Notes under the pieces: model-generated | Databases searched by the model: none | What the model saw: the letters and a program-made list of their open reading frames with translations, nothing else | Told to the model about the DNA's origin: nothing | Program-made: the position numbers and the translations under genes | In this document: in pieces, positions 2,829 to 14,997 of the stretch | Position numbering within the stretch: the stretch's first letter is position 1 | How the letters are laid out: every line of letters begins with the position of its first letter | From: a virus | Strand: one strand, 5' to 3' | DNA length: 64,000 bases | Virus record (IMG/VR): IMGVR_UViG_3300007512_000016 | Coordinates: 1 to 64,000 of that record

Positions 2829-3821
2829 ATGGCGGTCAAAGTCCAAGTGTCCCCCAGAGGGACAAACAAAGCCCGGAAGCAATTCGGCGGGGCCATTGCT
2901 ATCGGAAAGTTTCTCTCCCCCATCCAGCTCTTCCGTGTCTTCGACGGGGAAGAGCTACGTCGAATTCTCTCCACAGGGAAAATCGAAGGAGGCTCCTACT
3001 CCATCGCAGGAGAGAGAGCCTACGGTTCTCAATGGGGGAGCAACCGAACCGAGATAGCTCAATGGGGCGAGGCCCAAAGAGGGAAGCGTCTGGGCCACGA
3101 GCTGTTCATGGCTGAGATTCAGGGCAAGGGGCGAAGTTTCGCTCACCTGGAAGGTGCGGGGGGCAAGATGGATCCCAAAGCAGGGACCATTGACCTGGAC
3201 CCCGCCTTCTGCTCCTCCGGGCTGGGATGCTCCCTTAAAGTCGAGACCTCCGACGTCCTCCAGTGGTACACCGTCCGCGGTGGTGGGGCTGAACCTACAC
3301 CGCTGCTTGAACTCCAGGGTCAGTTAGGTCAAGTGGGGCTGCGAGAGCGAGAGATCGTCTTCTACAAGGGGACCTTCTACAAGGATTCCGCGAACGCAGT
3401 CACCCGAGCCCTTCAACTCCGACTCGTGGAAGAAGAAGCCGACAGAACCCGGTCCGACCCTGGCCCGAACCTTCGATCTCTGAAGATCGGGGTCGGGGAC
3501 TACATGCCAGAGGAAGCCCTGGGCCGAGCCCTCTTCAGCAAAATCTGCTCCCTTAGAGGCTGTGACCGCTGGGGGGTGTCGATCGCTCGGGCGGAGTATG
3601 AAGCCGGGACCAACCTATCCAACTTGAGACAGAGGAGTTTCGCCCTGATCGCTTGTGTATCAGCCACCGCTGCCGTGCCCGACATGAAAGCGAACTTGAA
3701 CGAGGCTTCAATCAAATTCGTGGACGTCTATTCCAAGACGCTGCGAGAGTGGATTCGGATCTGGAATCCCTGGGGGAGCACCCGAGTCCGATTCCACCAA
3801 CGGGGGCCGGAATTCCTGTAA
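2829..3821 (+). CDS. Protein with ADP-ribosyltransferase-like N-terminus
   Basis: 330 residues; ATG chosen because it directly follows the hairpin at 2801-2828 and its GAGG. Residues ~33-70 read LFRVFDGEELRRILSTGKI followed by SYSIAGERAYGSQWG. This pattern of an early Arg, an E-E-L-x-x-I-L-x-T-G-x-I helix and an aromatic/Gly strand resembles the first half of ADP-ribosyltransferase-like folds. The catalytic Glu cannot be assigned confidently. Residues 225-330 hold a second conserved-looking region with several Cys and Trp. It stands alone on the plus strand, tail to tail with the gene at 3823. Enzymatic function is a weak inference. Confidence 0.6.
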   Translation: MAVKVQVSPRGTNKARKQFGGAIAIGKFLSPIQLFRVFDGEELRRILSTGKIEGGSYSIAGERAYGSQWGSNRTEIAQWGEAQRGKRLGHELFMAEIQGKGRSFAHLEGAGGKMDPKAGTIDLDPAFCSSGLGCSLKVETSDVLQWYTVRGGGAEPTPLLELQGQLGQVGLREREIVFYKGTFYKDSANAVTRALQLRLVEEEADRTRSDPGPNLRSLKIGVGDYMPEEALGRALFSKICSLRGCDRWGVSIARAEYEAGTNLSNLRQRSFALIACVSATAAVPDMKANLNEASIKFVDVYSKTLREWIRIWNPWGSTRVRFHQRGPEFL

Positions 3822-3822
3822 G

Positions 3823-4443
3823 CTAGCCACACCAGGGAGGCTCATGGACTCCCGGCCATAGCTCAAACCAACAGGGATTGCTCACCGTCACGATCGGGCT
3901 GTACAGAAGGGAGCCCATCGAGGAGCCCGTACCCCCTGCCTGGGAAGGCTTGGTCGCAGAGTACAACACCCCACCGCACTTGCCTACCCAGATGCCCGAC
4001 CCAGGCCCGCCCGAGGAGTCGTACTCCTTCGGAAACGCCATCCCGGAAGAGCAAACGAAGAGATTGGCATAGGTGCCGTCCGGAAGCACCTTGGACACCC
4101 AAACCACCTCGCTGCCCAGGAAGCCCAGCATCTCATCAACGGAGACCTCTTCCGGATCCTCCCCCGCCTCATAGCGGTAGTAAACCGCCTCAGGATCCAG
4201 ACTCACCAAAGTCCCGGTGGAAGGCACCTGGAGCGGGGTGGTCATCTCGCTGTGGTCAGCGTCGTAGGACTCCCAGATCTGCTCAAAGGCTTCACCGATA
4301 CTCAGAACCAGAAGCCCGTTGATCTCGCTGACCGAGAACGAGACTTCATCGTCCTGAAAGGAGACCCCGGAATAGCTCCCGCTGGCCCCCGCAACGGGGA
4401 TAAAGGTGAAGAGGAAGGCTGCCAAGAGGGTGATCATTCTCAT
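3823..4443 (-). CDS. Secreted or periplasmic hypothetical protein
   Basis: 206 residues if it starts at the ATG at 4443; an upstream in-frame ATG at 4491 would put 16 residues before the signal sequence. The chosen start gives MRMITLLAAFLFTFIPVAGA followed by small residues, a good Sec signal peptide with charged n-region, hydrophobic core and A-x-A-like cleavage site. The mature part is acidic and rich in Gly/Ser with four Cys (VCSSG, GKCGG, NPCW, PPWCG), fitting a disulfide-stabilised exported protein. Export by a phage-infected cell suggests a role in the envelope or host surface. No family recognised. Both starts have weak ribosome sites. Confidence 0.6.
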   Translation of the reverse strand: MRMITLLAAFLFTFIPVAGASGSYSGVSFQDDEVSFSVSEINGLLVLSIGEAFEQIWESYDADHSEMTTPLQVPSTGTLVSLDPEAVYYRYEAGEDPEEVSVDEMLGFLGSEVVWVSKVLPDGTYANLFVCSSGMAFPKEYDSSGGPGSGIWVGKCGGVLYSATKPSQAGGTGSSMGSLLYSPIVTVSNPCWFELWPGVHEPPWCG

Positions 4444-4518
4444 GGACGCATGAGACCACAACTGATCCCAAACCGGAAGCCGACGGTTCATTGATGTAAG
4501 ACAGATTACACCAAAAGT

Positions 4519-4974
4519 TCAAGCCCCTCCGTCCGGGTTGCCCTCACACTTCGTCGCTGGAGTAAAGGGCAACCACCCGGAACGACCGGGACCTCGGTTG
4601 ATATGGACCGAAGGAAGAATCTGGCTCGCGGTAACCAGCAGCCCTTCCCCGCCATTCGCAGTCAGCTTGGGGTGGGTACATGTAGTCCCCTCCCGGTGGG
4701 GACAAGTCCCGCAGACGAGCATAAACCGACCGGGGCCCCCGCGAGACCAGGGCATCTCTGCATACAGCCGCTCGTGGTCCAGAATCACCTGCTTGCACGG
4801 GTCCGCTTTGCAGACCAAGACGGCAGGGGAGGTATCCTCCCACTCATCGTCCTCGTCAGCCTCCCACCAGAGGTTCAGGTAGCAGATATCGTCGTAGGTG
4901 ATCCCACACGCTTGACACCGGAGAAAGCTGTCAGCCGGGATCGGGTGAGGAAGAGTCTCCGTGAGCTTATCCAC
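4519..4974 (-). CDS. Cysteine-rich, probable zinc-binding protein
   Basis: 151 residues from a GTG at 4974 with CAGGAGC seven bases upstream, one base after the stop of the upstream gene, so translationally coupled. Metal-binding residues come in pairs: CQACG near residue 20, CKADPC near 60, then CGTCPH and CTHPK near 95-110. The last cluster, C-x2-C-P-H-x4-C-x-H-P, would make a compact zinc or iron-sulfur site. A very similar pattern (CGGCVH...C) is in the 729-residue structural protein at 42674-44863. No enzyme family is recognised. Confidence 0.65.
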   Translation of the reverse strand: MDKLTETLPHPIPADSFLRCQACGITYDDICYLNLWWEADEDDEWEDTSPAVLVCKADPCKQVILDHERLYAEMPWSRGGPGRFMLVCGTCPHREGTTCTHPKLTANGGEGLLVTASQILPSVHINRGPGRSGWLPFTPATKCEGNPDGGA

Positions 4975-4975
4975 G

Positions 4976-5680
4976 CTACGCTCCTGCCTCCGGCAAAGAG
5001 GAAGAGCGCAGCAAGCCGGTCTCCGGGCAGACCACCACGGAAGCCCCAAAAGAAAGCCCGCTCCGGGGCTTCAGGCACTCGATCTTGATCCCACCGTCTT
5101 CTCGCGACAAGAAGAAACGTTCCGAGGATGCGAAGCCCCACACCCTTGACCCCGCCACGTTTCGGTGATCCTTCGCTTCCGTCAAGACGAGTAAGGCTGC
5201 CCCGGTAGATTCCAAGCGAGGGCCAATATTCTGGACAAACACCGAGGTCATCTTGGCCCTATAAACAGGCCCGGGTGCCGCCGGGTGAGTGATTTTCGGG
5301 AGAAATTCCACGTCCGCGAGTACCAGCGGAGAGCCCGCCGCTACCGCGAGATCGGTTGCCCTCCAGAAGTTCTCCACCACATCAACCCGGGCTCCTTTGA
5401 CCCAATCCTCTGAACCGGCCACCCGAGTCGAAACGAGAGACCCTCGGGAAGTGACGTGAACCACCGGGGAACCCTCCTGCTCGGCATGGTGCCGCCACAC
5501 CATCTCGCGGAACCACCTGAGCAGATCAAAGGAACCCATGACCTGCGTGATCTGACCCGACAAGAAATTACCGCCGGGCAACAAGGGCATCATGCCAGGA
5601 ATGCCGGCATTCACGGATCGACGGGGCTGAGGCGGACTGGATAGTTCTCCTGGGGTCACAGGCTTCTCCTGTCTCCCCAT
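4976..5680 (-). CDS. RecA-fold protein with degenerate P-loop
   Basis: 234 residues from ATG 5680; the ATG at 5800 is less likely because a strong hairpin (5749-5779) lies between. The product can be laid along the RecA core. GGNFLSGQITQVMG matches the strand entering the P-loop, but GSFDLLRW replaces GxxxxGK[T/S]. SPLVLADVEFL fits Walker B, ALLVLTEAKD fits the following strand, and the RVWGFASSERFFL to IKIECLKPRSG segment fits the C-terminal core strands seen in the true RecA at 60721-61908. Without a P-loop it should not hydrolyse ATP, so it may be a regulatory RecA/RadB-like paralogue. The match is by eye. Confidence 0.5.
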   Translation of the reverse strand: MGRQEKPVTPGELSSPPQPRRSVNAGIPGMMPLLPGGNFLSGQITQVMGSFDLLRWFREMVWRHHAEQEGSPVVHVTSRGSLVSTRVAGSEDWVKGARVDVVENFWRATDLAVAAGSPLVLADVEFLPKITHPAAPGPVYRAKMTSVFVQNIGPRLESTGAALLVLTEAKDHRNVAGSRVWGFASSERFFLSREDGGIKIECLKPRSGLSFGASVVVCPETGLLRSSSLPEAGA

Positions 5681-5748
5681 ACGACCCCAGGCGTCGAACT
5701 TGTGGGCTCTACCTGAACAAGCGAGAGGGGAGGGTGGAGTCAGACATA

Positions 5749-5779
5749 GGGAGACCTCAGCGTTTACTGGAGGTCTCCC
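5749..5779 (-). terminator. Strong hairpin after methyltransferase gene
   Basis: GGGAGACCTC (5749-5758) and GAGGTCTCCC (5770-5779) are perfect 10-base arms around an 11-base loop, in the short space after the stop at 5802. No T-run follows on the minus strand, so it may be a Rho-independent-like pause, an mRNA-stabilising stem or a processing site rather than a classical terminator. Its presence argues that the next gene starts at 5680. Confidence 0.5.
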
Positions 5780-5801
5780 ATAGGGAGCATACCGAACCAT
5801 C

Positions 5802-7703
5802 TCATCGTCGTCGGAACACCAGCAAAGGCTCCGAGGCGTTCTTCCGGTTTAAGCTCGCCAAAGGCATCCGGAGGGTGTCCTCATGCTTGAAACCCGCCGT
5901 CACAGCCTCCCTGATGGCTGCTTCGACCAGGGGGAAGGTCTTCCTACCCTGGCGAACATCGGTGACGTTCAGGACCAACACACCGCCATCTGGGAGCCTC
6001 CTGTACGCCGTGACGAGGACCGGAACCAGAAACCCAGAGACCCACTCCTCAAAACCAGAATTCGTCACCGACGATTGATCCCGCGATCTCCCGTACAGCT
6101 CCAGGTTGAAGTAGGGAGGGGACGTAAAGACCAAGTCCACAGGACCGGGATCAAACGTCTCAGCGGGGTTCAGATGAATCTCAGCCCGGTCTTCCATGCC
6201 CAGGAGAGCAGCCAAACGACGGTTCCCCCCCACTGTCTCAGGCTCCACGTCCGTCCCGATATACTTCCCAACACCCGCCGCGAGAGCCCCCAGGAGCCGC
6301 CCACCGTACCCTGAGCAGGGATCCCAGACCACCCCACCAGAGGGGCAGTAGGTCTCGTACAGGTATCTGGCTACCACGGGACGGAAGACCGAGGGCGTCC
6401 GACAGTTGGCGGTCAAGGCTCTCAAAACTCTCTTCGGGATGACCGGATCTCCCACCCGAACCTGGAACCTGATCGCCCTACGAAGGTGCTTCTCGTCATG
6501 CCAGCCCTCCCACGCAGAGACGTTGCTCTTGTAGGTAGCCTTGTACCTGTTGGGGAAGAGGCTGTTACACACCCGCACCCCAACAGGGGTCCAGGAAGTG
6601 ATCCCGGATTTGGACTTCTGAACCCGAGCCAGCTCCTTGTGAGCCTCCGTCTCGTCCATCGGAGCCGGGAAAGGAAACGGAGTCTTTTTGAGGATCCGCA
6701 AGGCTTCCTCAAGCAACTGGTCAGTACCCAGAATCGGATCGAGATTTCCGAGGAGGACAGTAGCGGACTCCACCGTGTATCCGGCTCTGGGCCTCCCCAT
6801 CCGACGTGGTGTAGCACCCACGGCTTTCAAACGACGATGGACTGTGGAGCGGCCCACCCCGTATCGTCGGGCGATGGCACCCAAAGACATCCCATCAGAG
6901 TAAAGCCGGCCCACCATCTCAGGGGTCACCTGAGACGCATTCCGGTCCTGAACACGACGAGGTGAATCCGTCCTGGGGACCTTGTAGCTCATACAATCTG
7001 GGATGTGTGGCCGGACCAAGTCAAAGAACTTCCTGCCCTGTCCTGGGAACGAAATCATCTGGTCCCCATTCTCACCACGATGATCTGGTTTCAGACCCAA
7101 CCGCCTCAGGGCTTTCACAGCCCGTTTGAGGCTTCTGGAGCCGAGACCGAAGTGAATCCTGGGGTGATAGTTAGAGGCTAAGGAACCATCGTCCAGGTAC
7201 CAGACCGCCAAAACCATTGGTGTCATCAGATCTGGGAGACTGGCGGGAAACACCTTCTTCCCGCTCTGGTAAAACAAGTCGAACAGCCCTCGGAGCTGGG
7301 GGCAACTTTTAGTGTTCAGTTCCATGCCATGAAACTCGCGACCGTCAGGTAGCCGCTTCACGGTGGGGTAGGTGCTGGAGATGTAGTCACCCAGCAAGCC
7401 CGCTTTCCACATGAGGTAGGGAGCCTGAGACTCTCCATGACGTTCGATAAACCGAGCTGAAGCCCTACTCGACTCTTTCATGTGCCCGTCACCCAAGAGC
7501 GAACCCACCAGGAGTTCCACCTGGAATGTCGTCAAAGGTGGCAACTGACGTTCAAGTCGTTGGGCCTTACTGATGGTCGGGATACCAAATTTGCGGCGAA
7601 GCCGACCCACCTTCACCTGATAGGTGCCAAAGGCTTCCGCAATCTCTTGTTCGGACTTCAAATCGTCGCAGTAGAGACGCCGTAATTCTTCTTCGGTAAT
7701 CAA
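5802..7703 (-). CDS. LAGLIDADG endonuclease fused to DNA methyltransferase
   Basis: 633 residues, apparently from TTG 7703. Four parts are visible. Residues 1-45 are a small helix-turn-helix (SEQEIAEAFGTYQVKVGRLR). Residues 58-245 are a homing-endonuclease domain with two LAGLIDADG helices, ELLVGSLLGDGH (63-74) and LAVWYLDDGS (165-174). Residues 258-296 are a second HTH, MSLGAIARRYGVGRSTVHRR. Residues ~305-633 are an N6/N4-type methyltransferase: DPCSGYGGRLLGA at ~461 binds S-adenosylmethionine and TSPPY at 527-531 is catalytic motif IV. It would methylate an exocyclic amino group of A or C. No intein splicing motifs are present, so this is a fusion, not a splicing element. The weak TTG start is odd. 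Confidence 0.85.
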   Translation of the reverse strand: MITEEELRRLYCDDLKSEQEIAEAFGTYQVKVGRLRRKFGIPTISKAQRLERQLPPLTTFQVELLVGSLLGDGHMKESSRASARFIERHGESQAPYLMWKAGLLGDYISSTYPTVKRLPDGREFHGMELNTKSCPQLRGLFDLFYQSGKKVFPASLPDLMTPMVLAVWYLDDGSLASNYHPRIHFGLGSRSLKRAVKALRRLGLKPDHRGENGDQMISFPGQGRKFFDLVRPHIPDCMSYKVPRTDSPRRVQDRNASQVTPEMVGRLYSDGMSLGAIARRYGVGRSTVHRRLKAVGATPRRMGRPRAGYTVESATVLLGNLDPILGTDQLLEEALRILKKTPFPFPAPMDETEAHKELARVQKSKSGITSWTPVGVRVCNSLFPNRYKATYKSNVSAWEGWHDEKHLRRAIRFQVRVGDPVIPKRVLRALTANCRTPSVFRPVVARYLYETYCPSGGVVWDPCSGYGGRLLGALAAGVGKYIGTDVEPETVGGNRRLAALLGMEDRAEIHLNPAETFDPGPVDLVFTSPPYFNLELYGRSRDQSSVTNSGFEEWVSGFLVPVLVTAYRRLPDGGVLVLNVTDVRQGRKTFPLVEAAIREAVTAGFKHEDTLRMPLASLNRKNASEPLLVFRRR

Positions 7704-7730
7704 TGTACCATATCCCGCTCATTCGAGCAG

Positions 7731-7762
7731 AAGTATACACCCCTTGCGACATGTGTATACTT
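7731..7762. promoter_or_regulatory. Operator-like inverted repeat
   Basis: AAGTATACAC (7731-7740) and GTGTATACTT (7753-7762) are perfect 10-base inverted arms separated by 12 bases. Arm centres are 22 bp apart, two helical turns, as expected for a site bound by a dimer of a DNA-binding protein. Each arm contains the palindrome GTATAC. It lies 28 bp upstream of the endonuclease-methyltransferase gene, which itself encodes two helix-turn-helix segments that could bind here (inference). Confidence 0.55.
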
Positions 7763-7810
7763 TGTCCGAGAACAAAAACAGAAAGGAACATTAAGTAAAG
7801 ACCAGACGCG

Positions 7811-7848
7811 GCGAGGCCCGGCCTCCTGGTGGGAAGGCGGGGCCTCGT
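7811..7848 (-). terminator. Terminator hairpin after major capsid gene
   Basis: CGAGGCCC (7812-7819) pairs with GGGCCTCG (7840-7847), and internal GCCT/AGGC bases extend the stem. It begins about 20 nt past the capsid gene stop on the minus strand. There is no long U-tract after it, only CTGGTCTTTAC, so termination may be partial or the stem may protect the mRNA 3' end. Confidence 0.65.
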
Positions 7849-7868
7849 AGACTCGCTCAGCAGGCCAA

Positions 7869-8744
7869 TCAGCGAGTGATCGTCATCCGAGCGAGGCCCC
7901 GGGGGTTGTAGGCACCCAGACCGAGGTTCTCGAAAATACTGAAGCCGATGGTCCGGGCCTTCGGGTCGTCGGCCGAGAGCACCGTCAGCTCGGTGCGGAC
8001 GGGGATGCGGCCGAACATCTCGGGATCGCAACACACGTACACCGTGCCCACCGGGACGAGGCGGGAGGTCACGATCTGGCAGCCGTAGATGGTGCCGACG
8101 AGGCCGGTGCGGACCAGCTCCCGCTGGCTCTCGGGGTCGAACACGTCGCGGCCGAACTTCCGGATATCCGTGAAGTCCCGCTGGTTCATGTAGATCCGAG
8201 CGGCGTGGAGGTCGTGCCGCTCGACGAGACCCATCGCGTCAGCGATGACCGCGGCGGACAGCGGCGCGATGACGGGGATATCGGCGTTGGTGCCGCCCGC
8301 CACGGAGTCGAAGCCGTTGGTCGCGATGGCGTCCAGCACGGCGAAGACACGCTCGTCCTCGGCGGCCTGGACCTGCGACTTCGCGAGCACCTGGGCCCGG
8401 TCGATCATGTCGAACCGGCGTTCCTTGATCTGCGTGAGCGGGATCTCGGGGTTCGACGCGATCTCGAACAGGGGGAAGAGCACCCGACGCGGCTTCTGGA
8501 TGGCGAGGATGTTCTCACCTTCCTCGCCCACCACGTAGGCGGTGACTTCCGGATCCTTGTCGTAGATCGGGAGGGCTCCATCGGGGAGATCCTCGACGAG
8601 GAAGGTCTTGCGACCGACCGCCGAGTAGTCCCGACGCATCCGGAGGGGCTGCGTCATGGAGGCTGCGAGGCGAGCACGACCGCGGGGGGTCTTGATGTAC
8701 TCGCTGATGATCCGCTGCTTGACAGCGTTGCTTACCTTTGCCAT
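7869..8744 (-). CDS. Major capsid protein, HK97-like
   Basis: 291 residues from ATG 8744, with GGAGGG upstream. The long alpha/beta layout fits an HK97-fold capsid subunit: a basic N-terminal arm (TPRGRARLAASMTQPLRMRR), then DLPDGALPIYDKD, a P-domain-like helix (AQVLAKSQVQAAEDERVFAVLDAI), an A-domain with YMNQRDFTDIRKFG, and a closing strand set ending GLGAYNPRGLARMTITR. It lies after protease and scaffold-like genes, the canonical order, and its own terminator and leader suggest high expression. Codon use is markedly G/C-ending compared with neighbours, as in abundant proteins. Assignment rests on architecture and context, not a database match. Confidence 0.75.
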   Translation of the reverse strand: MAKVSNAVKQRIISEYIKTPRGRARLAASMTQPLRMRRDYSAVGRKTFLVEDLPDGALPIYDKDPEVTAYVVGEEGENILAIQKPRRVLFPLFEIASNPEIPLTQIKERRFDMIDRAQVLAKSQVQAAEDERVFAVLDAIATNGFDSVAGGTNADIPVIAPLSAAVIADAMGLVERHDLHAARIYMNQRDFTDIRKFGRDVFDPESQRELVRTGLVGTIYGCQIVTSRLVPVGTVYVCCDPEMFGRIPVRTELTVLSADDPKARTIGFSIFENLGLGAYNPRGLARMTITR

Positions 8745-8757
8745 TGTGTCTCCCTCC

Positions 8758-9420
8758 TCAGATGCGCTGGTCGAAGACGATCTCGGCCTGCGTGGCATCC
8801 GAGGGCATCTTGAGGATTCCGATGACGGTGGACGCCGACTGGCCGTGCTCGACCTCGGCAGCCACAGAAGCCACGTCCATCGTCTCAGTGTTGGTGAGAT
8901 CGTAGGACGGCTGGAGGTAGCCGTTGCGGCTCGCCACCAGGGAGAGGCCCGTCAGGTAGCTGATATCGTCGCCAGCGGATCCGGTGAGGCCGGTGCCGCT
9001 GAGGAGCTGGGTCTCAAAGAGCTGGCTGGCGTAGGTGCCCTGGCCGGAGACGTAGGGCCCCTTGCCGCTGGCGGACGCCGGCTGGTTCTCGAAAGAGTTG
9101 CCCGCCGCGTTGTTGATGAACAGCCCCAGGGGACGGACGATCAGCTCGTGGCTGGCGGTCGCGAGACCCTCGGCGTTGCCGCCGATGTAGTTGCTGCCCT
9201 CATCGGGGCGGGTGAAGGCCACCGAGCCGCTGAGGACGCCCAGGAGGCTGGTGTCCACGTTGGAAGCGATGGTAGAGGTTGCGGTGACGATCGGCGGGTT
9301 GGTCTGCGTGAAGCTATCATCGGTCAGGATGCCCACCGAGTTGTTGATCCCCTTGTAGAGGATCCTCAGGGCGCTGCTCGACTCAGTCCACGCACCGCTC
9401 GCCTGTCCAAGCAAAGCCAT
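8758..9420 (-). CDS. Capsid-associated structural protein
   Basis: 220 residues, ATG with GGAGAAATC upstream, 13 nt before the capsid gene and in the same transcription unit. The sequence is rich in Ser, Thr, Gly, Ala and Asn, has no Cys and no catalytic motif, and contains many short beta-prone segments (NNSVGILTDDSF, VASRNGYLQPSYDL). Co-expression with the major capsid protein and its size suggest a head decoration or stabilisation protein present at comparable copy number. This is inferred from context. Codon bias is strong, as in the capsid gene. Confidence 0.65.
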   Translation of the reverse strand: MALLGQASGAWTESSSALRILYKGINNSVGILTDDSFTQTNPPIVTATSTIASNVDTSLLGVLSGSVAFTRPDEGSNYIGGNAEGLATASHELIVRPLGLFINNAAGNSFENQPASASGKGPYVSGQGTYASQLFETQLLSGTGLTGSAGDDISYLTGLSLVASRNGYLQPSYDLTNTETMDVASVAAEVEHGQSASTVIGILKMPSDATQAEIVFDQRI

Positions 9421-10935: not shown

Positions 10936-13900
10936 CTAGGGGGTCTTGTTGGGGGGGCTCTCCAGCAGGGAGAGGAGACTTCCAAGGCGTCGGAACACCT
11001 TGACTTCTGGGATACCAAAGCGGCGTCCCGTGTGATCCTGACACGCCAAGAGGAAGCGAGCCGGGTTGTCGCGGTATGCCTGCCCTCCAACCCGGAGGGC
11101 AGTCAGGTAGGTGTCCCGAGGCTGAACACAGCCAAACTCAGCATCCAGAAGAGCGACCTTGTTGATGAGATCGGTCTCGGAACTCGCGGTACGGAGGAGA
11201 ACCCTCTCTACCCGCTCCTGAGCTTGCTTGTGAAGATTGTCGTTGGTGTGGACTTCATCCGAGGATGGAGGCTTCTCGTCCTCCAAATCCTTCTCAATGT
11301 CCTCACGAACATCCTTGATGAGCTTCTCCTTGAGCTTCTCCTTGGTCTTGTCCAAGGGACGCGCAGGGGACTTCGGAGAATCCTGCTCTTCCTCGCCATC
11401 CTCCGGATCACCGAAGTCGAAGGCTAGAGCCGCCGCTCGCGGCATCCCCCCCTCAGTCCAGGTCGGGGGAGGAGAGGAGAGCACATCTTGGAGAGTCTTG
11501 TTGTGGGGAATCGCCTGAGTAGGAGAAAGAACGTTCCGGAGAACGGCTCCCTTGAACGCAGGATTCCCCACCCAGGAAGCCTCAATGAACACCACTCCGC
11601 CAGTGTCATCCAGGGAATGATGCCCGCAATTATGTACGGCAATCCCTTCCGCCAGATACGAATGATCGGTGTCCACTGCGATGTTGTGAACCTTCCCCTT
11701 ATAGGACTCCGTCCACACATCCCGGACCCGGTACAGCATGTACCCCTCATGGGTACGCCATGCCGGGGTCAAACCTCGACTACCAACCTCAGTCAATCCG
11801 AAAAACGCCGTGGCCTCATCAGAAGGCTGGATGTGCAGTTCATGACGAGCACGGAATCCGTCAGACCCAACAGGCACCGCTGTCCCGTTGACGACTTGCT
11901 GAAGCTCTACACATTGACCCTCGAAAATCACTTGCCGTCGGGTCCAGAAACCACACCGAGCAGCCACCACTTGCATCTGGCTGATCAGGGTCTCCGACAC
12001 GGACGACACAGAATGGCGACCTCGGGTGTCAACGGTGCCGTCCCCCCAGAGGTAAGATCGAAGCATCGATGCTTGCAGGGTTTTGGGCCAGAGAATTGCA
12101 TCCTCCGAGAGCCTCTTGGAACCGGAATACTCCCCGGCGTGCTTATAGAACCAGTCGGCAGCACTTCGGTTCGTATAGCAGACGACCAACTTCTTGCCGG
12201 GCTCCGCAACCCGGTCAAAGCAATGAACCCGGGCTAGATTAAACCAATCAGCCGGAGCACCACTCAGCCGCTCCCACACGAGAGCGTTGGTCCCGGAGGC
12301 CCCGAATTGCGTCTTCTCCGAAGCACGAAGCCTCCGACTCGAAACGAGTCCCTCTGACCTGAGCCCCGACAAAGCCAGTTGAATTGTCTTCTCTCGCAAC
12401 CCCAATCTACGAGAAACCTGTCGAGTCGTTGCGGGGATCGCCAGAGCTTCCAACAGCCGGACCTTCGTGGCCTTCTGGAGGTTGAACTCGGGAGTAAAGC
12501 ACTTGCTCAGGAGGGAAGCCAGGGCTTCCGCAACACCCACCTCATCCTCTGCATTAAGGGTGAGTTGAATGCCCACCCGCTGCCCATCCTTCTTGATGTA
12601 GCAGCCCTCAGCCAAGAACCATCCCAGGAGCCGTGCCCTGTCCTCATCCACATCCTCCGGAACCACCACACCCTGCGGGGCCGGCATCGCCACCATGTCC
12701 CCAACCCTCACGTTCCCGGCTTCGACAAAGTCAAAAGAGGGCGCATCCAAGGACACGACATTCGTAGGGTTGTGCCCTGGGGCATACTTACGAGTATATT
12801 CCCCCCGTGCAAAGGTCTTGCGGACGCTCTTAAGCTTGATGCCGCAACCACAGGCACACACATCATTCTGGCTGATAACCCAGAAGGGGTGGTTGGGGGT
12901 GCTCCGTAGCGTTTGCGGGAGACCCACCAAGTCCAAGGCTACCAGATCACCATCAAAGTCCCGCTCGAAAATCTCAACGACCTCACGTCGGTGCCCCGTG
13001 TGGGAGAGAACCACATCCCCAACTTGGAGATCCTCAATGGCTACCCGACTCCCATCTCCGATTGAGACTCGGATGCCAGGAGGGAAACACAGCTCCGCGA
13101 TGACTCGACGCTGACCTTGACTGTCGTAGAAGGTATCGAGTTTGTGGTACCGGATGCAGTCGCAGGTATCCGTGTCATCCACGGCGACGTTGCCGCACTT
13201 CGTACACTGAGTCGTCTGGGTTGTGCAGCCCATCGAGAGCGTGCCCATCTTCCCGGATTCAATATCCGTGACAAGCTGGGTGTGCTTCCGGTCAGTCGCG
13301 ACCAGAATATCCACGTAGACCGACCGACCGATATCCCTCGCGGCGGCGTCGATAATCCTGCCCTTGGACAGCTCCTCTACCTGGACATGCTCGCAGTTAT
13401 GTACTGCGATTCCGTAATCGATAACGTAGCTGTGATCGCCCTCGACCTCAATATTGTAGACCTTTCCACGGAAAGGAAGAGTCTCATTAGAAGCCACTCG
13501 ATGAGTGCGGCAGCCACCCCACCAAGCCAACTCCGACCGCTTCCGCTTCGCCGTCGCATCAAACAACGGGGTGCCCCACCTTGGGGTTGCCGAAGCCACT
13601 TGCGAAGTAGAGCCCTTGGAGACAACCAGCGTCCAGACGTGGTGACGAGGAACTACATCAAAGGACCTATCTTCGCCCCCGATGGTCATCACAACACGAC
13701 TCTGGACTTCCCCAATCTTCTGGGGCTCAAACATAACAAAAGACTTGACACCAGCCAGCTCAGCCACCCGCTGCATTTGCTGAGCGAGAGCTTCAGAGGT
13801 GGTGGTTCCACGCAGACGAAGGGTGGCCTTATGGAGGTTCCCGTCCCCAGCCAACCAAGCGGCCAGGAGACGGAGCAAGGACTCCTCATCCCAGGAGAAA

Positions 13901-14997
13901 ACCTCTTCCGACAGCCGCTTATCCGCAGCCCGGTGCCCGCCCAGGGACACCATTCGACGGGATGCCTCCGCGGAGTATACCCGCACTTGAATGCCGGTCT
14001 GAACCGTAGCCACCGTCACGGAGCTTGGGTTCAGCACTGCGTAAGCCAGAGACTCAGCACGGCGAGCCAGATCAACTTCGTGGTGCCCGAAGGCGAGCAC
14101 GAAGCCCTGATCCGAACTCGGAGACAAAGGGCATCCCTCAGCCAAGTAGTACCCTAGCAACTCAGCTAGGCCCGGATCCGAATGAGTGCCAGCCTCTCGG
14201 ACGGGACCCAGAACCCGGTCCCCTACCCGCATCTGATCAGCACGAACCCAAGTGGATTCAGCCTTGAAATCCTTGAGAGAGTGCTTGTCGCCCCGTAGAG
14301 CCTTAGCCACCTGATCTTTGTAATAACGGGTAGTGCTGGACGCCTTGGAACCTGACCGTGGTTTGACGGGTGCCGAAGAGACTTGAATCCCTCGGAAGGG
14401 ATGGTTGCCCGTCACCAACACCGGATCCTTAAATCGGTCGAATCCGATAGCGTGAATGTCCCCTTCGTAATCCCGCTCGAACTTATGAGTTACTGCCTGA
14501 CAAGCACCCGTATGGGTTACCACACGGTCCCCCACCTGGACTTCCTCGATAGCCTTGTAAGTGCCATCCGACAGGAGAATGCCGGTACCAGCCGCGAAGC
14601 AGAAGTTGTGGGAACCAATGAACGTGGGGTAGCTCGCCAGGAGCACCTTCCTCGACCACGCATCCCCGTTGTTGTTGACCAGATCAGAGCACGCCGGATT
14701 GATGTAGTAAGCACCCCATCGACGATCGATGGTCTTGCTGCCCACCCGCACCTTGCCCAGCTTGGCGCCCTGGACCTCCTCCACATCCACCGAAGCCACG
14801 ATCGTAGCGTGGGAGAGGAGATACCGATCAGGGTCGAACCGCTCCCCGAGAATCTCTGACGCCCGAGAGGCGAGATCATGAGAGGCAATCGGGGACGCGC
14901 CGCCCTTCTTCCGAGCCGCAGTCCGCACCCGACCCCAGCCCCGGGAAGAGATTCGCGGGTGTGTGACCCTGGCGTTGGCGAACTTACGGAAAGCCAT
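10936..14997 (-). CDS. Prohead protease with two inteins
   Basis: 1353-residue precursor. Removing inteins at residues 133-534 and 637-1123 leaves about 464 residues. The joined extein reads ...YPTFIGSHNF-CEHVQVEE, then SGKMGTLSMGC with CTKCG, then RVIAEL-CGHHSLDDTGG. A His in the first block and a Ser in the GTLSMGC strand fit the His/Ser pair of herpesvirus-type phage prohead proteases. C-x2-C pairs (CTKCG, TCDC) suggest a zinc knuckle. Both inteins sit next to the presumed catalytic region. The C-terminal ~150 residues are acidic and helical (DVREDIEKDLEDEK). The gene precedes the scaffold and capsid genes, as expected. The protease call rests on motif plus order. Confidence 0.7.
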   Translation of the reverse strand: MAFRKFANARVTHPRISSRGWGRVRTAARKKGGASPIASHDLASRASEILGERFDPDRYLLSHATIVASVDVEEVQGAKLGKVRVGSKTIDRRWGAYYINPACSDLVNNNGDAWSRKVLLASYPTFIGSHNFCFAAGTGILLSDGTYKAIEEVQVGDRVVTHTGACQAVTHKFERDYEGDIHAIGFDRFKDPVLVTGNHPFRGIQVSSAPVKPRSGSKASSTTRYYKDQVAKALRGDKHSLKDFKAESTWVRADQMRVGDRVLGPVREAGTHSDPGLAELLGYYLAEGCPLSPSSDQGFVLAFGHHEVDLARRAESLAYAVLNPSSVTVATVQTGIQVRVYSAEASRRMVSLGGHRAADKRLSEEVFSWDEESLLRLLAAWLAGDGNLHKATLRLRGTTTSEALAQQMQRVAELAGVKSFVMFEPQKIGEVQSRVVMTIGGEDRSFDVVPRHHVWTLVVSKGSTSQVASATPRWGTPLFDATAKRKRSELAWWGGCRTHRVASNETLPFRGKVYNIEVEGDHSYVIDYGIAVHNCEHVQVEELSKGRIIDAAARDIGRSVYVDILVATDRKHTQLVTDIESGKMGTLSMGCTTQTTQCTKCGNVAVDDTDTCDCIRYHKLDTFYDSQGQRRVIAELCFPPGIRVSIGDGSRVAIEDLQVGDVVLSHTGHRREVVEIFERDFDGDLVALDLVGLPQTLRSTPNHPFWVISQNDVCACGCGIKLKSVRKTFARGEYTRKYAPGHNPTNVVSLDAPSFDFVEAGNVRVGDMVAMPAPQGVVVPEDVDEDRARLLGWFLAEGCYIKKDGQRVGIQLTLNAEDEVGVAEALASLLSKCFTPEFNLQKATKVRLLEALAIPATTRQVSRRLGLREKTIQLALSGLRSEGLVSSRRLRASEKTQFGASGTNALVWERLSGAPADWFNLARVHCFDRVAEPGKKLVVCYTNRSAADWFYKHAGEYSGSKRLSEDAILWPKTLQASMLRSYLWGDGTVDTRGRHSVSSVSETLISQMQVVAARCGFWTRRQVIFEGQCVELQQVVNGTAVPVGSDGFRARHELHIQPSDEATAFFGLTEVGSRGLTPAWRTHEGYMLYRVRDVWTESYKGKVHNIAVDTDHSYLAEGIAVHNCGHHSLDDTGGVVFIEASWVGNPAFKGAVLRNVLSPTQAIPHNKTLQDVLSSPPPTWTEGGMPRAAALAFDFGDPEDGEEEQDSPKSPARPLDKTKEKLKEKLIKDVREDIEKDLEDEKPPSSDEVHTNDNLHKQAQERVERVLLRTASSETDLINKVALLDAEFGCVQPRDTYLTALRVGGQAYRDNPARFLLACQDHTGRRFGIPEVKVFRRLGSLLSLLESPPNKTP
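11629..13089 (-). mobile_element. Intein 2 in prohead protease, with LAGLIDADG domain
   Basis: Residues 637-1123 of the precursor (487 aa). Starts with Cys (CFPPGIRVSIGDGSR), has STPNHPF as the block B histidine, and ends GIAVHN before a Cys +1 residue. Homing-endonuclease helices are RARLLGWFLAEGC (~787-799) and MLRSYLWGDGT (~978-988), with a winged-helix-like segment (ATTRQVSRRLGLREKTI) between. A CACGCGIKLK cluster near 714-723 is an extra zinc-binding-like insert. Splicing residues are intact. Confidence 0.9.
13396..14601 (-). mobile_element. Intein 1 in prohead protease, with LAGLIDADG domain
   Basis: Residues 133-534 of the precursor (402 aa). Starts CFAAGTGILLSDG, has TGNHPF as the block B histidine, and ends YGIAVHN before Cys +1. 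LAGLIDADG helices are LAELLGYYLAEG (~278-288) and LLRLLAAWLAGDG (~374-386). All residues needed for splicing appear present, so it is probably active. It shares the ending AVHN-C with intein 2 but the endonuclease parts differ. Confidence 0.9.

Follow-up and report, generated by a model that had tools for sequence, protein, structure and literature searches.

A LAGLIDADG endonuclease fused to an amino-methyltransferase recurs beside the major capsid protein gene of jumbo phages and is a candidate mobile cut-and-modify element

The minus-strand open reading frame at 5802–7703 of the window, by which the whole 64,000-nucleotide stretch analysed here is meant (positions 1 to 64,000 of the virus record IMGVR_UViG_3300007512_000016), encodes a single chain in which a LAGLIDADG homing endonuclease domain between two helix-turn-helix (HTH) units is joined to an amino-methyltransferase (MTase), directly downstream of the gene for the major capsid protein (MCP). 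The reading we favour, with somewhat better than even confidence, is that of a free-standing homing endonuclease at an MCP hotspot of jumbo phages, the fused amino-methyltransferase of which spares the resident locus. Its basis is the architecture, the intact catalytic residues, the conserved locus, the recurrent gain and loss of the gene and the exchange of the nuclease with retention of the MTase; the protein would accordingly be expected to cleave a target in the MCP region and to home there, and its MTase to methylate DNA for the purpose of self-protection. A mobile or selfish role had already been proposed from a sequence-only reading of this DNA and is still judged the best interpretation.

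The frame spans 633 codons from a TTG at 7703 to the stop at 5802 with no internal stops and, since upstream of the TTG it stays open for just five codons, this TTG is the likeliest start. From the N-terminus onwards, and always on the minus strand, it encodes a first HTH (aa 3–48; 7560–7697; model helices at 4–13, 18–25 and 29–38), in keeping with PHROG matches of aa ~3–51 to phage HNH/DNA-binding families, a LAGLIDADG_2 domain with two motifs (aa 57–247; 6963–7535), a second HTH (aa 256–300; 6804–6938) with a resolvase-type match at aa 263–293 (Pfam PF02796, 3.9e-7), a flexible linker that constitutes the fusion joint (aa 301–310; 6774–6803) and a complete amino-methyltransferase unit (aa 311–633; 5805–6773). 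The single frame, together with the Pfam and PHROG matches, confirms the earlier proposal of a LAGLIDADG and a methyltransferase part in one polypeptide with two HTHs and a TSPPY motif. An AlphaFold2 model of the protein, run with 24 natural sequences, has a mean pLDDT of 91 and its sole segment below 50, residues 301–306, lies at the joint; the pTM is 0.54, therefore the placement of the two halves relative to each other is not fixed.

A reading as two genes or as a frameshift is rejected, as the frame is single in every relative; an identical copy of the gene in a second assembly and the same architecture on many independent contigs likewise exclude an assembly or frameshift artefact. Neither an in-frame stop or frameshift nor degenerate catalytic aspartates, which the sequence-only reading had named as grounds for its refutation, were seen: D72 and D172 are both in place. 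Splicing elements, the absence of which had also been noted, do not appear, with no Hint/intein domain in the window protein (Pfam) and, on the contig with the identical gene copy, L002, no match to a group I intron (Rfam), and the intein or intron reading is rejected on these grounds. The gene is thus its own ORF outside any intron or intein and the upstream MCP gene is intact, as characterizes a free-standing homing gene.

The MCP gene (7869–8798, minus strand) ends 165 bp before the start of the fusion gene and its product is 76% identical to the MCP of LR745208.1, a 485-kb uncultured phage, and 40% identical to gp27 of Bacillus phage G, annotated as 'major capsid'. A terminator-like hairpin immediately follows the MCP gene (7812–7847), as one does in most relatives. 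At the same place LR745208.1 encodes a protein of 1229 aa that comprises zinc ribbons, the same MTase and a pair of LAGLIDADG units; in the first of these units (L003 5195–5550) both catalytic aspartates are replaced (GNG, DRG), and the second is intact. The record from which the window is taken, a 100.6-kb virus contig, is probably a piece of a jumbo genome. Two further observations concern these surroundings. Right after the MCP of one relative (L085 7972–8850) lies, as judged by eye, a different, stand-alone Dam-like adenine MTase, and in the window a 1353-aa ORF (10936–14997, minus strand) matches Hint/intein splicing domains in two places and also has a LAGLIDADG_3 domain; this structural or enzymatic gene probably contains two inteins.

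The endonuclease half is recognized by Pfam as LAGLIDADG_2 (PF03161) at aa 63–199 (E 5e-25; 88.8 bits against a cut-off of 25) and by PHROGs as a LAGLIDADG homing endonuclease (1.5e-20), has I-SceI as its nearest relative by sequence (E 1e-4) and matches I-SceI in the fold of the modelled part with a TM of 0.80 (normalised by target length). Both LAGLIDADG helices carry the catalytic aspartate, D72 within LLGDG (codon 7488–7490) and D172 within LDDG (codon 7188–7190), and D72, D171, D172 and K241 are invariant over 24 aligned fusions. The half is predicted to cut a long specific site and to home. That it has become a dead DNA-binding guide which only targets the MTase, as the degenerate LAGLIDADG copy (GNG/DRG) next to an intact MTase in L003 could be taken to indicate, is very unlikely in view of the invariance of D72, D171 and D172 in the 24 fusions and of the second, intact LAGLIDADG copy that L003 itself retains.

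In the C-terminal half, phrog_12517 matches aa 434–607 (3.9e-19) and N6_N4_Mtase (PF01555) aa 522–600, the latter with a score of 26.1 below the gathering cut-off of 26.7 in the window protein; the relatives L051 and L038 and the stand-alone L004 pass it. The AdoMet-binding motif I DPCSGYGG (aa 461–468; 6300–6323) precedes the catalytic motif IV TSPPY (aa 527–531; 6111–6125), the combination of motif I and (T/S)PPY that marks amino-MTases, and D461, P462, C463, G465, G467 and G468 as well as T527-S-P-P-Y are invariant across the 24 fusions. The unit is continuous over aa 311–633, so the element does not interrupt the methylase; it aligns end to end with stand-alone phage MTases, and in the model its fold extends to the C-terminus of the protein. 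Its sequence neighbours are phage MTases labelled 'N-4 cytosine-specific', profile comparison yields 2zie and the cytosine-N4 MTase 8s9m, and its fold neighbours include pithovirus proteins annotated as N4-cytosine DNA MTases and, in the PDB, tRNA methyltransferases, among them Trm11-type RNA MTases. The methylated base is most likely N4-cytosine or N6-adenine in DNA; DNA is a putative substrate, since no target-recognition domain is recognisable in the window MTase and the PDB fold neighbours include tRNA methyltransferases.

A single chain in which, as in Type IIG enzymes, the nuclease comes first and an MTase with motif I ahead of motif IV follows, the swaps of the nuclease between classes described below and PADLOC matches to mad2 and Type II MTases would suit a compact Type IIG-like restriction-modification enzyme that attacks any host or superinfecting DNA and does not home. 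We consider this improbable: LAGLIDADG sites are long and rare and no LAGLIDADG has been described in restriction-modification systems (PMC9957025), neither a C-terminal nor a separate specificity module was recognised in the window protein, and a fixed MCP-adjacent locus combined with sporadic distribution looks like homing.

To turn to the distribution of the fusion, a scan that looked for MCP relatives, and so had no bias towards MTase or nuclease, yielded 80 loci, in which the gene downstream of MCP encodes, depending on the locus, a LAGLIDADG-MTase fusion, a putative PD-(D/E)XK-MTase fusion, LAGLIDADG alone or something unrelated. Further scans with MTase and LAGLIDADG alignments bring the ORFs with both LAGLIDADG and methyltransferase to 44 (34 distinct), nearly all just 3' of MCP and on contigs of up to ~0.5 Mb; in ~30 distinct loci the fusion is directly downstream of MCP. 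L248 and L249 came from a scan of bacterial and archaeal genome contigs; L249, binned as Altiarchaeales and probably a phage contig, has two tandem LAGLIDADG-MTase fusions of different LAGLIDADG subfamilies straight after MCP (3779–8235). Wherever the MTase family occurs near MCP in the MCP scan it is fused to a nuclease, LAGLIDADG or putative PD-(D/E)XK (13 of 13 loci), and never stands alone; away from MCP most of its members are stand-alone. The family is a frequent stand-alone phage gene and also occurs in ParB-like fusions, and in L096, L101, L105, L109 and L132 an N-terminal ParB-like region replaces the nuclease (by eye).

The fusion proteins are 27–56% identical to the window protein and, because their catalytic residues and motifs are invariant despite this divergence, both halves appear to be kept under selection; for dN/dS, the available pairs are either near-identical or saturated. 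The search for the same architecture elsewhere, which the sequence-only reading had suggested, has thus led to many independent contigs, and its view of a recent fusion does not hold: phages as different as these, the 485-kb phage among them, share the fusion at the same MCP-adjacent locus, and it has also been re-formed independently (L078/L248, see below). The fusion is no recent event, nor is it unique.

On the MCP tree the presence of the fused gene changes 15 times, at least six of these changes being forced by supported branches, which argues that the gene is mobile; a fixed locus that is occupied sporadically, in some relatives and not in others, is what distinguishes free-standing homing genes. 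A population variant, L018 and L024, is identical to L020 over a stretch of 4304 nt that takes in MCP and LAGLIDADG, after which the sequences diverge and the variant lacks the MTase. Empty-site boundaries among near-identical phages were partial and, blurred by repeated intergenic sequence, none was found at base level. In distant relatives with MCPs ~35–40% identical (L205, L209 and L225), LAGLIDADG ORFs interrupt the MCP gene or lie ahead of it, and there are group I intron matches at several different positions with E-values from 6e-4 to 3e-6, all below the Rfam gathering score. LAGLIDADG ORFs placed in this way were also seen in L208 and L211. In Bacillus phage G the unannotated gp28 (L328 4982–5914) adjoins MCP and shows, by eye, zinc-finger, NUMOD3-like and PD-(D/E)XK-like motifs; judged by these motifs it is likely a homing nuclease. 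The gain and loss of the fused gene, the intron matches and LAGLIDADG ORFs in or beside distant MCP genes and gp28 together suggest that homing nucleases have a standing target in the MCP locus of this group of phages and, for the window, that the MCP gene is the likely target locus.

The nuclease part is exchanged on a retained MTase. Among close MTase relatives, L091 has two HNH units instead (PHROG HNH, 4e-106), L089 a Vsr-like stretch recognized by motif only, and L013, L038 and L041 two PD-(D/E)XK-like units, of which the second is degenerate, again by motif only (GRVGE...FD...NVK). For this last module in L038 and L013 neither a profile nor a PDB match was obtained and the fold model, with a pLDDT of 35, is unusable, so that the PD-(D/E)XK label is solely motif-based. 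The pairing of an intact with a degenerate putative nuclease unit in the L013-type proteins resembles the LAGLIDADG pair of L003. More distantly, L005 combines NUMOD3 with Vsr and L208 has LAGLIDADG_3. With 13 stand-alone outgroup rows and the long-branch rows L240, L005 and L208 excluded, as also in the wider tree below, the nuclease-fused MTases group together at 100/100, and the LAGLIDADG label requires at least three changes inside this clade; in a more widely sampled tree with a weak backbone the nuclease association needs two changes. The narrow outgroup gives one origin of nuclease fusion; the wider sampling allows two. The MTases of L078 and L248 group with that of L180 (99/95) and the LAGLIDADG of L078 falls in the free-standing clade (100), an independent re-fusion at the same locus.

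Endonucleases of the LAGLIDADG clade of the window that are devoid of an MTase also occupy the MCP locus (L175, L177, L183 and L186). The ORF of L175 ends with ...KRMGRPARNR just past the second HTH, where the linker of the window protein begins. Because this protein stops at the joint and the MTase half matches stand-alone enzymes, the fusion joins two complete, separately existing proteins. It has to be considered here that the MTase gene itself might be the homing target or safe haven and the fusion a by-product without functional coupling, as actinophage methylases do carry an inserted LAGLIDADG domain, an intein or the ShiLan element (PMC9957025; PMC11855218). Such an invasion is unlikely for the present proteins, in which the nuclease is appended N-terminally and the MTase uninterrupted; in the MCP scan no stand-alone member of the MTase family turned up at the MCP locus as an uninvaded ancestor, and the endonuclease alone is common there, so that the nuclease looks resident and the MTase added.

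Homing endonucleases normally spare their own genome as the insertion or sequence divergence destroys the site, and restriction systems use methylation. In the mechanism we propose, the LAGLIDADG/HTH half would recognise and cut a long site that related, co-infecting phages have at their MCP locus, recombinational repair would then copy the element together with its flanks into the cut genomes, and the tethered methyltransferase would mark the genome of the resident, most likely on the cognate site or close to it, by which the intact locus of the resident would be spared. Self-protection would explain the fusion, because an intact target beside a free-standing endonuclease needs sparing, and also that no member of the MTase family without a nuclease was found at the MCP locus. 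The MTase is not obligatory for this purpose, however, as MTase-less endonucleases persist at the same site (including L018/L024).

For the MTase, a role as anti-restriction cargo is nearly as likely as self-protection. The endonuclease would then still home to the MCP region, and the fused passenger MTase would mask host restriction sites, the two activities acting on unrelated sites. That the family is common in phages as a stand-alone gene and in ParB-like fusions, that the MTase half aligns with stand-alone enzymes over its entire length and that endonucleases without MTase persist is all consistent with such a passenger, yet adjacency would suffice for cargo, and all members of the family found at the MCP locus are fused, with the fusion retained even where nucleases of other classes have replaced the original one; as a complete account it is possible, if rather doubtful. 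Returning to the endonuclease with a self-sparing MTase, we propose, tentatively and with less than even confidence, that these proteins form a distinct class of mobile elements, homing endonucleases with their own modification enzyme in the chain, which would cut and self-immunise and spread via the jumbo-phage capsid locus with interchangeable nucleases (LAGLIDADG, HNH, Vsr-like and possibly PD-(D/E)XK) on one MTase lineage.

Upstream of the fusion gene, a perfect inverted repeat with 10-nt arms, AAGTATACAC-N12-GTGTATACTT (7731–7762), overlaps promoter-like hexamers; the chance expectation for it in the window is 0. The repeat behind the GTATAC operator postulated earlier is therefore real and the operator role is that of a candidate, but it is not conserved upstream of the fusion genes of relatives, and a GTATAC operator as a conserved feature is rejected. 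GTATAC occurs nine times in the window against 1.8 expected, some copies lie just upstream of ORFs with at least one other gene preceded by it, and the motif possibly belongs to a phage promoter.

A recurrent fusion with nuclease exchange and a retained MTase would directly link two kinds of selfish DNA-cutting system, and the class of mobile elements proposed above, if real, would bridge homing endonucleases and restriction-modification systems in evolution. With the fusion, the way in which a free-standing homing gene next to an intact target avoids self-cutting becomes testable, and the fusion may also play a part at the capsid gene when co-infecting jumbo phages compete. Homing nucleases can disable competitors (PMC11620839), and those of ICP1 and T4 cluster at essential phage genes, adjoining capsid genes, either free-standing or in introns (PMC10448857); unlike these, the window nuclease carries an MTase, and neither 'methyltransferase' nor 'methylase' is mentioned in that work. 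For an N-terminal homing nuclease-MTase (LAGLIDADG-MTase) fusion at a phage capsid locus no description was found in the open-licence literature, in which absence is no proof; arrangement, locus and module exchange appear to be new.

Like I-SceI and I-WcaI (PF03161), the window protein has the two motifs of a monomer and both catalytic aspartates, but it differs from them in being free-standing, phage-borne, flanked by two HTHs and fused to an MTase. GIY-YIG nucleases with an appended N-MTase are reported from Lactobacillales (PMC1564403). The closest precedent comes from actinophage methylases with an inserted LAGLIDADG domain (PMC9957025), where Taj_79 and relatives in a few related phages have a 139-aa internal LAGLIDADG insertion outside an intein, explained as an invading element. 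Taj_79 and the window protein both unite LAGLIDADG and a DNA methylase in one phage polypeptide; in the latter, however, a whole HTH-LAGLIDADG-HTH unit stands N-terminal to an MTase that is not interrupted, and the arrangement occurs in many jumbo phages at the MCP locus and with several nuclease classes. The ten organism groups named among our tblastn matches include no Mycobacterium phage. The ShiLan element, a hidden out-of-frame HNH inside an actinophage methylase gene (PMC11855218), similarly ties a homing nuclease to a phage methylase, but not in one bifunctional chain. By analogy, Type IIG enzymes (PMC4081073) may be regarded as the functional counterpart, as cleavage and methylation, both predicted in our case, reside in one chain with motif I before IV; the window protein departs from them in its homing-type nuclease (LAGLIDADG or, in relatives, HNH), in having no C-terminal specificity module and in its mobile, MCP-adjacent locus. 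The recurrence with interchangeable cutting modules suggests a mobile cut-and-modify element and not a one-off accident.
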